DNA of 64,000 nucleotides, taken from contig PGZF01000001.1 in the NCBI GenBank assembly GCA_002840125.1, positions 372,001 to 436,000 of the forward strand, read 5' to 3'. Shown here piece after piece: positions 31,316-52,334 of this stretch. Source of the DNA: Gammaproteobacteria bacterium HGW-Gammaproteobacteria-15 (GTDB lineage: Bacteria; Pseudomonadota; Gammaproteobacteria; Enterobacterales; Alteromonadaceae). The first letter of the stretch is position 1. Each line of letters begins with the position of its first letter. The position numbers and the translations under genes are program-made. The notes under the pieces are model-generated. The model did not search any database. It saw only the letters and a list, made by a program, of their open reading frames with translations, and was not told the DNA's origin.

Positions 31316-31404
31316 TGACTCCTGGCAATAGCAGCAGCCAACTTGCTGAAAACAGTAAGTTGCCACTGCTGTGAATTCCCGCACGCAGGTAAAAAGACAT
31401 TAAG

Positions 31405-31560
31405 CTAAGGCAGGTCTCCTGACTTAAAGCGATAACCCACAACCGCCTTCCCGGAATATTACCAGTGGCATTTGATTGCAGCGCTTATTACAGTTGCGGG
31501 TACAGTGCGGGCTTTACACCCACTTCCCTTTTCAGCGGGAGTTATCCCGCACCAAAGCAG
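31405..31560 (-). ncRNA. Cobalamin riboswitch
   Basis: Read on the minus strand, the leader has the conserved B12 elements in order: GGTGCGGGA, GGGAAGTGGGTG, GCCCGCACTGTACCCGCAACTG (read in parts), GGAAG, and the highly conserved box AGTCAGGAGACCTGCC at 31408-31424. It binds adenosylcobalamin and shuts off the downstream uptake operon when B12 is plentiful. It ends about 90 bases before the btuD start. Confidence 0.95.
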
Positions 31561-31564
31561 GCGC

Positions 31565-31594
31565 AGTGTAGCAGATCTGACGAGGGGCAATCAA
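31565..31594 (-). promoter_or_regulatory. Candidate sigma-70 promoter of the B12 operon
   Basis: On the minus strand TTGATT (31589-31594) and TACACT (31565-31570) are spaced by 18 bases. Transcription would start just at the 5' edge of the riboswitch, which supports the call. No transcription data. Confidence 0.5.
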
Positions 31595-37788: not shown

Positions 37789-37830
37789 ACATAACGTCGC
37801 AATCACGCGCCTGTCGCGTGCATTGCTTTG
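37789..37830 (-). repeat. attC site h, left part (split by IS)
   Basis: ACATAAC at 37789-37795 followed by the palindrome cgcaatcacgcgc/gcgtgcattgc. The rest of the site, GTTAGGC, is at 39488-39494 on the far side of the insertion sequence. Joined, they make a normal attC for the ankyrin-like cassette. Confidence 0.88.
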
Positions 37831-37907
37831 ATACTCATTGAGCCTTCTCCCCAGCCCAGCCATTTGGCTAAGCTGGAAGGCGACCAAACCAAAAAGGAGA
37901 AGACCCA

Positions 37908-39021
37908 ATGAAATTTTATACTACACAACATCCGTACTATTGTGGAATTGATTTGCATGCACGCTCTTTGTACGTCTGTATTCTCGATGCAGCCGGTGAA
38001 AGCATCTTACACCGCGAAATCAAAGCATTGCCAGAACCTTTGTTCGATTTATTATCACCTTACATCGGCAATATTGTTGTTGGCGTTGAATGCATGCACT
38101 GTTGGTACTGGGTCAGCGACTTTTGTGCTGAACACGGTATCGATTTTATTCTCGGCCATGCGCTGTATATGACAAATTCTTCTGGAAAGAATTTGAACAG
38201 CTTTAGCTGGCCCGAAGGGAAAAGTACAGGACGTACTTTTCAATGCGATTCATGGCGGCAAAGCCAAAAATGATCGCATTGACTCCTATAAAATCGCCCA
38301 TCTTATCCGTGGTGGTAACTTCCCTCTGGCCTATGTTTATCCGCCTGAAATGCGCGCTGCCCGTGACCTGCTTCGACGTCGCACCCGCATCGTCCGCCAC
38401 GGTGCAGATTTAAAAGCACATGTCAACAACACCACCAGCCAATACAATTTACCGCCAAATAATCTGAACTTACGCTATGACTTTGCCCGGGAGGCCATGC
38501 GAAACCGTTTTGATGATGACTGTGTGCAACGCAATATCGACCTCGACCTTAATATCATCGCGTTTTACAAGCACGAACTCAGCTCCGTTGAATGTTTTAT
38601 TGAAAAACATGCTAAACATCATAGCGGTAGTGACTATCACATCCTCACCAGCTTTCCTGGGATTGGCCGCATTCTGGCACTCACCATTCTGTATGAGATT
38701 GGTGATATCGCCCGCTTTAACACGGTACAGGACTTTGCGTCATACAGCCGTTTGATTAAGTGCAAAGCCGAATCGGCCGGTAAAACTTACGGCACTCAGG
38801 GCAATAAGATTGGCAATGCCCATTTAAAGTGGGCCTTCGGTGAGATTGCTGTGCTTTATCTGCGCGGTAACGATAAAGCCAAATCTTATTTGCTCAAACT
38901 ACAAAAGCGTATGAGCAAAGCCAAAGCACTGTCCGCTCTGGCGCATAAAGTGGGTCGCTGCGTGTATTACATGCTGAAGAATCAGAAGGTGTTCGATGAA
39001 AAGCGTTTCTTAGCCGGTTAA
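37908..39021 (+). pseudogene. IS110-family transposase, disrupted by a 70 bp repeat
   Basis: Two frames together make a DEDD transposase of about 347 residues. Part 1 (37908-38171) has YCGIDLHARSLYVCILD and VVGVECMHCWYWV, giving the first Asp and the Glu. Part 2 (from 38242) has KNDRIDSYKIAHLIRGG and the C-terminal domain SFPGIGRILALTILYEIGD (helix-hairpin-helix) and the Ser-region FASYSRLIK. Between them a 70-base insert (38172-38241) shifts the frame by +1, so the first frame stops at 38273. The gene would be intact without it. Start ATG is preceded by AAGGAGAAG. Confidence 0.92.
38172..38241 (+). repeat. Two-hairpin repeat, copy R2, inserted in transposase
   Basis: Hairpin 1 at 38173-38195: stem CAAATTCTT/AAGAATTTG, loop CTGGA. 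Hairpin 2 at 38219-38241: stem GAAAAGTAC/GTACTTTTC, loop AGGAC. The linker between them (AACAGCTTTAGCTGGCCCG) matches that of copy R1 at 45797-45865 with few changes. Its removal restores the transposase frame, so its boundaries are set by function. Confidence 0.88.
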
Positions 39022-39488
39022 GTCGCGGGACAAGGTGAGCTGAACGTCTAACTGGAACACCATGGCTGATGCTCAGATGATGGTTGGGTAACCCTTAGCA
39101 ATAAGCTGAATCACCCGCCTTCTGGCACACTGCCGTAACCAGGTTGCTTTGATTAGACACTTTGCCGCCGCGCATTTACCATCAGCAAGATGGTTTGCAC
39201 CTGTGCTGAGCCTGAAACTAACTGGCTTTAAGCCCGACGTCTTGAATAGCGCCAGCGACAGGTTAACCGATGAATGTCTGGTGCCCCTGCTGTGGGCAAG
39301 GATGCTCAAATCAGCAGGCGCTCATTGAGCATGAGATAAGGGAGCCCCGATATGTGTTTGTTGCAGGCTATCGCCTGGCAACCATGATGACAGATGAAGC
39401 AGTCTATCTTGCTGATGGACAAGAGCCTGGCCGCTGACGCGGCCAGAAGAGCGGTTTTACCTATTGACTCCGAGAAGGCTCATATGTG
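39022..39488 (+). ncRNA. Candidate bridge/seek RNA region of the IS1111 element
   Basis: 467 bases after the transposase stop contain no gene. In IS1111 elements this region encodes the guide RNA that pairs with target and element ends. Matches seen: TTGCTTTG-A-TTAG at 39144-39156 equals the rebuilt attC target TTGCTTTG|TTAG; CTCATTGAGC at 39321-39330 equals the left end 37834-37843; ATATGTGTT at 39350-39358 equals the right end plus target at 39482-39490. RNA limits and folding are not determined. Confidence 0.6.
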
Positions 39489-39923
39489 TTAGGCATTTTC
39501 GACAAGCCCTCTAAGCTGCTCAGCACATTCAATGCCAGCAGTAGCTATAAGGAAGCGTAAGTCGTCTGCGTGCGCCTCGGTTGCAATAAGCGGTCTCTTC
39601 CAGCGATCTACCTTATACTTAGCCCCTGAGAATAAACTGCTCCATACCATTTTGACGGCAGCATCTGCAGCAATTGGCTCGTACTCGGTGGATGTAGTCA
39701 TCGCCAGGTAATTTTTCAGATATTTAATTGCATCCACCCTATTGATATCGCAGCCCATAATCCTCGCTGCCCGGGAAAACGTAACAACATTTCCCGTTTT
39801 CTCAGCCCACTCTATTGGCAGCCAGCCATTCTCGCGCTGCCAGATCAGCTCGGGATTGGTCGAAACTACTTTCTCAATAGCTTTGTGGTCGTGCGCAACA
39901 ATCGCCCTCGTGAGCTCAGTCAT
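39489..39923 (-). CDS. Ankyrin-like cassette protein
   Basis: A 144-residue protein. The first 75 residues look like about two ankyrin repeats (HDHKAIEKVVSTNPELIWQRENGWLPIEWAEKTGN, read in parts). The C-terminal part is a helical pair (DDLRFLIATAGIECAEQLRG). No signal peptide. Its stop codon overlaps the GTTAGGC core of the split attC. The IS separates it from the rest of the array and lies downstream of it. Confidence 0.7.
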   Translation of the reverse strand: MTELTRAIVAHDHKAIEKVVSTNPELIWQRENGWLPIEWAEKTGNVVTFSRAARIMGCDINRVDAIKYLKNYLAMTTSTEYEPIAADAAVKMVWSSLFSGAKYKVDRWKRPLIATEAHADDLRFLIATAGIECAEQLRGLVENA

Positions 39924-45956: not shown

Positions 45957-46123
45957 AGGTTGGAATCCACGAAAAGTCGACACAGAGTGTCTGAGCGAGC
46001 GCGCCAGCAGCGAAGTGACAAATTCGTCTGGAACGAATTTGAACAGCCTCTGGCTGGCCTCCGGCGATGGGCAGGATTGACCAGCGTAATTGCTGTGGCG
46101 AGCTATTCGTGGAGTTGCAACCG
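45957..46123. repeat. Long inverted-end repeat, copy F2b, with half element R3 inside
   Basis: Ends GGTTGGAATCCACGAA (45958 on) and TTCGTGGAGTTGCAACC (to 46122) pair. It shares the block AGAGTGTCTGAGC and TGTGGCGAGC with F2a at 48825-48920. A half copy of the two-hairpin element lies in the middle at 46018-46060. Confidence 0.75.
46018..46060 (+). repeat. Half two-hairpin repeat, copy R3
   Basis: Stem CAAATTCGT/ACGAATTTG, loop CTGGA (46019-46041), then AACAGCCTCTGGCTGGCC. It differs from R2 hairpin 1 by one base pair: G-C here, T-A there, changed on both arms. The second hairpin is not recognisable. Confidence 0.78.
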
Positions 46124-51775: not shown

Positions 51776-52109
51776 CTATGGGGTTTTGTCTTTATCAGTT
51801 TACAACATAGCGAAAATAGACCATTTAACATTGAAGTACAGCTGAAAACGATTTTTTTAGATTTTTTACTTATAAAGTAACCAATGTTAATACAATGATG
51901 AACTAAAAATACTAGCGGCTAATATTGCACCGAAATCAGGGGCAACGCAGTCACCTTGCCTGTTCCACTGCATAAACTGGGGATAACTTACGTATAAGCT
52001 GGGTATAAAAGCGTAAAAAAGGATAGCTTTCAGCACCTTTGTTTCAAATGCACCAACAAGCAAAAATTTGTGTATTAACTAAACTGGAACTTACCTTCTG
52101 AATATTGGC

Positions 52110-52195
52110 AGTTGTAACGATAGCGCACGGCTCATTCCCTATGAGCCATTCCCCTAAGCCCGGAACAATGCGGATTGGTTCCGGGCTTCTTTTAT
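52110..52195 (+). ncRNA. Candidate small RNA with terminator
   Basis: On the plus strand GGCTCAT-TCCCT-ATGAGCC (about 52127-52145) is followed by the terminator stem AAGCCCGGAAC/GTTCCGGGCTT (52156-52188) and CTTTTATA. No plus-strand gene precedes it, so an independent short transcript is likely. The 5' end is not defined. Confidence 0.5.
52156..52195 (+). terminator. Plus-strand intrinsic terminator
   Basis: 11-base perfect stem with 11-base loop, then CTTTTATA. No T run on the minus strand, so it does not end tatD transcripts. Confidence 0.8.
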
Positions 52196-52334
52196 ACCCT
52201 TCGACTTTCAAAATGCACGGTTGTTGGCTGCGCTCGCTCACCCCAATCACACAGTACTCCTATGCTCACGGGGATTCACTCACTTGTCGCCTACGTGCAT
52301 GATGAAATCCATTGGCTATATCAGGTTGTTGAAA

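Follow-up and report, generated by a model that had tools for sequence, protein, structure and literature searches.

The window (the whole stretch of DNA analysed, 64,000 nucleotides) contains an element of IS1111 layout, and we consider it very probable, at about 0.87, that the non-coding region (NCR) at its right end gives rise to a guide RNA, at most ~400 nt long, acting by the full mechanism proposed below. Comparison with related sequences showed a conserved RNA structure, a left target guide that follows the flanking DNA, a donor guide column that follows the element's own end, and a position within attC sites of integron cassettes.

The element and its place in an attC site

The element is a member of the IS110 superfamily with IS1111 layout. 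The first-pass annotation had described an element of this type in an attC core, and Pfam and NCBIfam matches as well as the rebuilt empty site bear this out. The features of the element and of the interrupted site are as follows.

37831-39488, forward strand: whole element (left-end anchor TTGATAC at 37828, right-end anchor 39477-39491)
37790-37830, reverse strand: left portion of the attC that the element interrupts (all that follows R'' in cassette sense)
37839-37849, forward strand: left subterminal inverted repeat, TGAGCCTTCTC, 11 bp
37908-38273, forward strand: 5' half of the transposase, a 121-aa ORF with an N-terminal DEDD domain fragment (DEDD_Tnp_IS110, below the Pfam cut-off: 22.4 versus 29 bits)
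38172-38241, forward strand: hairpin-rich insert of ~70 nt that breaks the transposase frame
38350-39021, forward strand: 3' half of the transposase, a 223-aa ORF with Transposase_20, above the Pfam cut-off
39464-39469, forward strand: TTGACT, a -35-like hexamer in the right end
39472-39482, reverse strand: right subterminal inverted repeat, GAGAAGGCTCA
39489-39494, reverse strand: R'' remnant TTAGGC, in cassette sense GCCTAA, with the TAA stop of ORF 39489-39923 (reverse strand)

The element is 1658 bp long when the shared TG dinucleotide is assigned to its right end; a copy of TG is also present at 37829-37830, outside the left end. Members of the IS1111 family have subterminal inverted repeats of 11-13 bp and terminal extensions of 7 bp on the left and 3 bp on the right, occasionally 6 and 3 (PMC11187229). 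The 11-bp repeats found here fall within that range and covary: a base of the left repeat pairs with 39479 in 92 of 92 distinct NCRs, and the pair is changed in nine of them. The terminal extensions as delimited are 8+6 or 10+4, a total of 14 nt versus 10, with the ends ambiguous across the shared TG. The transposase is a DEDD transposase of the IS110 superfamily, though its gene is split in the window copy, and an intact relative (L014) scores above the NCBIfam cut-off for 'IS110 family RNA-guided transposase'. Downstream of this gene, positions 39022-39488 make up the 3' NCR of the element, which is 467 nt long and has conserved structure. Across 61 right ends, each base of TATTGAC shows 91-100% conservation.

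The ~70-nt insert occurs at the same transposase site in five of 114 element records (the window, L012, L018, L038 and L041). These five inserts are 90-99% alike and the flanking genes as little as 68% alike; from such comparisons the insert resembles a small mobile sequence that is site-specific and preys on the transposase gene. Its first part (38171-38223) is found at 11 further places of the genome, one of them at window position 46017, as a repeat family with matches of 35-53 nt and 82-93% identity.

A transposase search of the element's own genome at E <= 1e-30 yielded only the two pieces of the window copy. Because the transposase gene is interrupted and there is no other copy at this threshold, the window copy is probably inactive, a fossil unless helped in trans. 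The guides within such a copy are a record of the element's past. Fragments of the ends or of the NCR are present at eight further places of the same genome. Locus L003 of this genome (contig C2, 1501-1791) is a shortened copy with ~150 bp of the left end beside ~140 bp of the right end, and L002, L005, L006 and L007 are more shortened copies or fragments of the NCR or right end.

The element interrupts the R'' (5') core of the attC site of an integron cassette. The rejoined flanks read, in the sense of the cassette gene (reverse strand), GCCTAACAAAGCAATG...GACGTTATG, and the empty site obtained in this way adopts an attC-like hairpin fold. ORF 39489-39923 has its TAA stop within GCCTAAC, and therefore the element is in the R'' core, that is, at one attC end, as in the IS1111-attC group. 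In attC sites R'', but as a rule not R', carries an extra AA, which is TTG in element sense, in line with these flanks. Nearby, the cassette-sense sequence of an uninterrupted attC is GCTAACAAGCC, equal to CTTG/TTAGC in element sense (the slash marks the insertion point). The orientation of flanking ORFs was mildly informative in distinguishing R'' from R', the TAA frame being the longest in 54 of 95 elements.

In order to compare the element with relatives, we took the best 80 of 207 loci from a scan of genome contigs. Both end motifs were found within three mismatches in 64 of 81 sequences (the 80 loci and the window), and the other 17 were dropped. A second round of 79 loci from genomes and named plasmids gave 50 more element records after 29 loci without both ends were dropped, for totals of 114 element records and 85 distinct insertion sites, sites sharing the last 15 flank bases being merged. 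Through this merging the window is represented by L014 in the 81-site, right-guide, within-cluster and 78-site tests described below; it is itself present in the 57-site test. The end motifs contain TTG at the left junction and GTTA at the right, so the attC-likeness of those bases is partly built in, and an end search based on them may miss elements at other targets. As for bases outside the search motifs, 56 of the 85 distinct sites have GTC within -24 to -11, and 73 of the 85 have A at -6.

Probable target and donor guides in the NCR

Three short strings of the NCR had been singled out in the first-pass annotation as equal to the left end, to the right end with target, and to the rebuilt target. 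All three are present in the sequence; comparison with relatives supports two of them as guides and speaks against CTCATTGAGC. The relevant features are listed below.

39022-39173, forward strand: RNA domain I, a target-guide loop closed by stem P1 (39022-39037 with 39158-39173)
39046-39052, forward strand: candidate right target guide GTCTAAC, complementary to the target top strand GTTAGAC
39144-39151, forward strand: left target guide TTGCTTTG, which equals the left target flank
39179-39418, forward strand: RNA domain II, multi-branched and closed by the long stem P3 (39179-39193 with 39404-39418)
39218-39249, forward strand: highly conserved second internal loop, with CTAACTGG (39218-39225) and TCTTGAATAG (39240-39249)
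39321-39335, forward strand: inverted repeat CTCAT-TGAGC-ATGAG holding CTCATTGAGC; not a guide
39350-39356, forward strand: left donor guide ATATGTG, which equals the right end of the element (column 39353 follows 39485)

We conclude from sequence comparison that TTGCTTTG is the left target guide, since it tracks the left flank among relatives as the earlier proposal of a target guide would have it. The bases that precede TTGATT (39149-39154) vary strongly among relatives. When these were anchored at 57 sites, the guide agreed with its own left flank at 147 of 285 positions, compared with 106.4 +/- 7.4 after shuffling. At 81 sites (four of the 85 had no left-guide anchor and were left out) agreement reached 205 of 405 positions versus 153.7 +/- 8.5, with z 6.0 in register and z between -2.6 and 1.5 in the nine shifted registers for which z is defined; position by position, from -1 to -5, z was 4.7, 4.3, 3.4, 1.3 and 0.6. 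The 24 new sites alone gave a weaker signal (p 0.012 over 3 nt, 0.097 over 5 and 0.25 over 7). A scan of the whole NCR, with 78 sites and 938 windows, placed 39144-39148 first with z 5.1, the next window having 3.2. A single-column scan of flank against NCR at 50 sites (seven with a non-canonical right end and two duplicates were left out) again ranked the left-guide column 39148 highest, at z 4.1, but a chance column scored equally well; for the right flank, no column was conspicuous.

The window guide matches its own flank at all five variable bases and at TTG, and among 85 other flanks only that of L014, which is at the same cassette site, fits it equally well. Conversely, the five bases before TTG in the window flank are matched by 8 of 81 other guides too. 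Guides often mismatch their current flank, 17 of the 81 agreeing at only zero or one of five positions.

For the right side of the target, GTCTAAC is a likely but unproven guide on sequence evidence, weakly supported though likelier than TTAG. Anchored at 72 sites over 4 nt (13 of the 85 lacked a right-guide anchor, a GTTA end or enough flank), it agreed at 120 of 288 right-flank positions versus 106.8 (p 0.005), and its register was the best of 15 (z 2.6, next 1.9). In the unanchored scan GTCTAAC ranked 18 of 934 and was not significant. The right flank of the element in the window is GTTAGGC. GTCTAAC precedes the left guide, which is the order reported for seekRNAs of IS1111 elements (PMC11187229). 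The proposal that TTAG after TTGCTTTG forms part of the target guide was not upheld. The window has TTGCTTTG, then A, then TTAG at 39153-39156, an order that resembles the rebuilt target TTGCTTTG/TTAG. TTAG did not track the right flank in any of seven registers (z at most 1.7), and it belongs to a near-constant ATTAGAC among relatives.

On the donor side, ATATGTGTT at 39350-39358 equals the right end together with the first target bases (39482-39490), as had been stated, and its ATATGTG behaves by column covariation as the donor guide, with exceptions. Base 39485 of the right end has three states among 92 distinct NCRs: T (78), G (11; the Halomonas clade and the divergent L160) and A (3; seen in L169 and L170). 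When NCR columns with at least 80% of their rows filled are compared, 39485 itself excepted, 39353 is the best follower of this base, agreeing with 100% of the majority and 93% of the variants (next product 0.65). As to the exceptions, the match is broken in L093 and L161, and nine of the 92 distinct NCRs do not contain their own right-end 7-mer. L038 and L054 carry a ~26-nt sequence inserted within the donor guide itself (the equivalent of 39350-39358). A search for a right donor guide, comparing variable left-end bases with NCR columns in the 92 distinct NCRs, gave no convincing partner. Guides covarying with target and with donor, the mark of an RNA-guided element, are represented here by the left target guide and the left donor guide.

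The remaining string, CTCATTGAGC at 39321-39330, does equal left-end bases, and it had been taken for a left-end guide. Comparison instead identified it as a hairpin of a few close relatives, consisting of one arm and the loop of the inverted repeat. Only 8 of the 92 distinct NCRs contain their own left-end string; all eight belong to one close group, whose transposases share 85-96% identity. L009 and L014 have different left ends, but their NCR string is unchanged. Most other relatives carry another short inverted repeat at this place, for example GCGGTGAGACCGC (judged by eye).

A two-domain RNA region and other readings of the signals

Comparative analysis of the NCR sequences indicates that two stems define an RNA region of ~400 nt with two domains, and the conserved RNA structure proposed for the 3' NCR is found in these stems, P1 and P3, both of which show compensatory changes, individual pairs taking several standard forms. 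P1 had -22.9 kcal/mol with its own partners versus -14.7 +/- 0.45 with swapped ones (64 rows, own median rank 0), and P3 had -19.7 versus -9.9 +/- 0.76 kcal/mol (48 rows, own median rank 2). The pairs listed, which are only those above 60%, form in 42 to 63 of the 64 P1 rows and in 33 to 47 of the 48 P3 rows. Elements without stem anchors (13 of 114 for P1, 40 of 114 for P3) and identical rows were dropped; at least two of the P1 rows kept, L015 and L046, look wrongly anchored. P1 encloses both target guides, and in an inner stem beside them CTA stands opposite TAG in 11 of 12 cases and CCA opposite TGG in 35 of 71.

Domain II folds better than its shuffles (z -4.10), and the fold of domain I of the window copy alone is unremarkable (z -1.63). 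Folding had been expected to reveal two internal loops: the target loop closed by P1 agrees with this, while the donor guide lies in a multi-branched domain. The second internal loop, at 39218-39249, is inside domain II and resembles the target-loop motif. Rfam gave no family within the element at gathering score, only a single chance hit (E 0.95). Elsewhere, the window has a cobalamin riboswitch at 31392-31571 (reverse strand) and an SdsR/RyeA small RNA locus at 52055-52198.

Could the strings match the ends by coincidence, through chance or hairpins, in an NCR that guides nothing? Within one sequence 8-nt matches often arise by chance, and it is comparison with relatives that decides. In 2000 first-order Markov shuffles of the NCR, the share with one or more same-strand 8-nt matches was 14% for the left flank, 11% for the left end and 9% for the right end with its flank, and an inverted repeat does account for one of the three strings. 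A 10-nt left-end match arose in 0.7% of shuffles, and the string that is best by this measure, CTCATTGAGC, is the very one that comparison rejects. Against coincidence stand the left-flank covariation at one register only, the donor column covariation and the compensatory stems, and we regard this explanation as extremely unlikely. We also see very little room for confounding at the level of clades, in which related elements, hosts and attC sites would produce agreement between guide and flank without any pairing. The elements are phylogenetically clustered, and the left-guide effect shrinks, though it is kept, as clusters tighten; the signal is nevertheless confined to one register and survives when elements are permuted only inside clusters of relatives, with p from 0.0002 to 0.011 over four cuts and likewise over the three tighter ones.

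A different assignment of roles within the RNA would make a compact conserved module at 39195-39262 (CTAAC / CTTG) the working target reader and the variable loop of domain I an accessory. This module, whose conservation is strong, combines a GTTAG complement with a CTTG copy, arranged as in the published RNAs; it is near the size of the published 82-nt ISKpn4 seekRNA, and contains a window (39237-39241) that is sixth of 938 in the left-flank scan, with z 2.7. Its guide-like bases hardly vary, however, and hence are beyond covariation testing, and the clear flank signal (z 5.1) maps to domain I and not to the module. We therefore hold this assignment to be unlikely, and prefer domain I as the reader of the target. 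It is conceivable, if doubtful, that the sequences represent an attC-hunting clade with a three-loop guide RNA of ~400 nt, made up of a variable loop, a donor domain and a near-invariant loop that reads the attC core.

Proposed mechanism and relation to known systems

With domain I as the target reader, its hypervariable 3-5 nt followed by the constant TTG, a copy of the top strand to the left of the insertion point, would pair with the bottom strand, and the upstream GTCTAAC may complement the top strand to the right. Together the two target guides would spell TTG/TTA, the R'' (5') core of attC (TAACAA in cassette sense), which would explain the place of the element at that attC end. In domain II the donor guide would be ATATGTG, which repeats the right end of the element itself. 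The excised circle is predicted to join TTGACT to the left-end GATACT, creating a promoter for the transposase gene and the NCR. By analogy with IS621 and ISEc11, the transposase would bind this RNA, through which the circularised ends would be paired with the target, and strand exchange would take place at the shared TG.

The general idea of RNA-guided elements that target attC is not new. In 2024, seekRNAs were reported bound to the transposases of the attC-targeting ISKpn4 (82 nt) and ISPst6 (86 nt), with a longer, precursor-like RNA beside the main species; a seekRNA was predicted for ISPa25, and the NCR was needed for movement of ISEc11 and ISEc21 (PMC11187229). As that report describes them, ISKpn4, ISPst6 and ISPa25 resemble the window element in having an attC target at one end, an NCR downstream of the transposase gene, subterminal inverted repeats, and a right-target complement that precedes the left-target copy in the RNA. 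The difference lies in extent: the ISKpn4 and ISPst6 seekRNAs are 82 and 86 nt long, whereas the conserved structure found here spans ~400 nt in two domains and has its donor guide in the second. Among the 60 of 162 PLSDB records listed, identity falls from a group at 38-75% to about 33% or less. A 32%-identical element of a P. aeruginosa plasmid (H73, L107), tried as an ISKpn4-like yardstick, did not match the ends of the clade.

The bridge RNA of IS621, as described in PMC11208160, is alike in that its left target and left donor guides are top-strand copies, its target guides lie on two sides of a loop, and its core dinucleotide is shared. Unlike IS621, the window element has its RNA at the right end, its target guides in reverse order and its donor guide in a multi-branched domain, and its right donor guide was not found. 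Durrant et al. in 2024 also predicted bridge RNAs for ISPa11 and other elements of the IS1111 group, and reported potential donor nucleotides in a multiloop for many IS1111 members, which is the arrangement seen here (PMC11208160). The figure legend of that report that covers ISPpu10, ISAar29, ISHne5, ISCARN28, ISAzs32 and ISPa11 mentions no attC target, in contrast to the window element. Among the titles and abstracts listed by searches of open-access literature, none dealt with a two-domain RNA or with guide-flank covariation in attC elements; the large two-domain RNA together with natural covariation of guide and flank looks new.

These results, which draw only on natural sequences, indicate that an attC-targeting insertion sequence has a guide that follows the cassette site where the element sits, and the R'' sequence spelled by guides TTG and GTTA would be the reason for the position at that end. 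They connect integron cassette arrays, whose recombination sites are split by such elements, with RNA-guided transposition. They also provide a natural set of guides and targets, and the guide RNA region exceeds in size the published seekRNAs of attC-targeting elements. If the three-loop RNA were true, it would combine a fixed with an adjustable target reader, and its variable loop would have been naturally reprogrammed among cassette sites.
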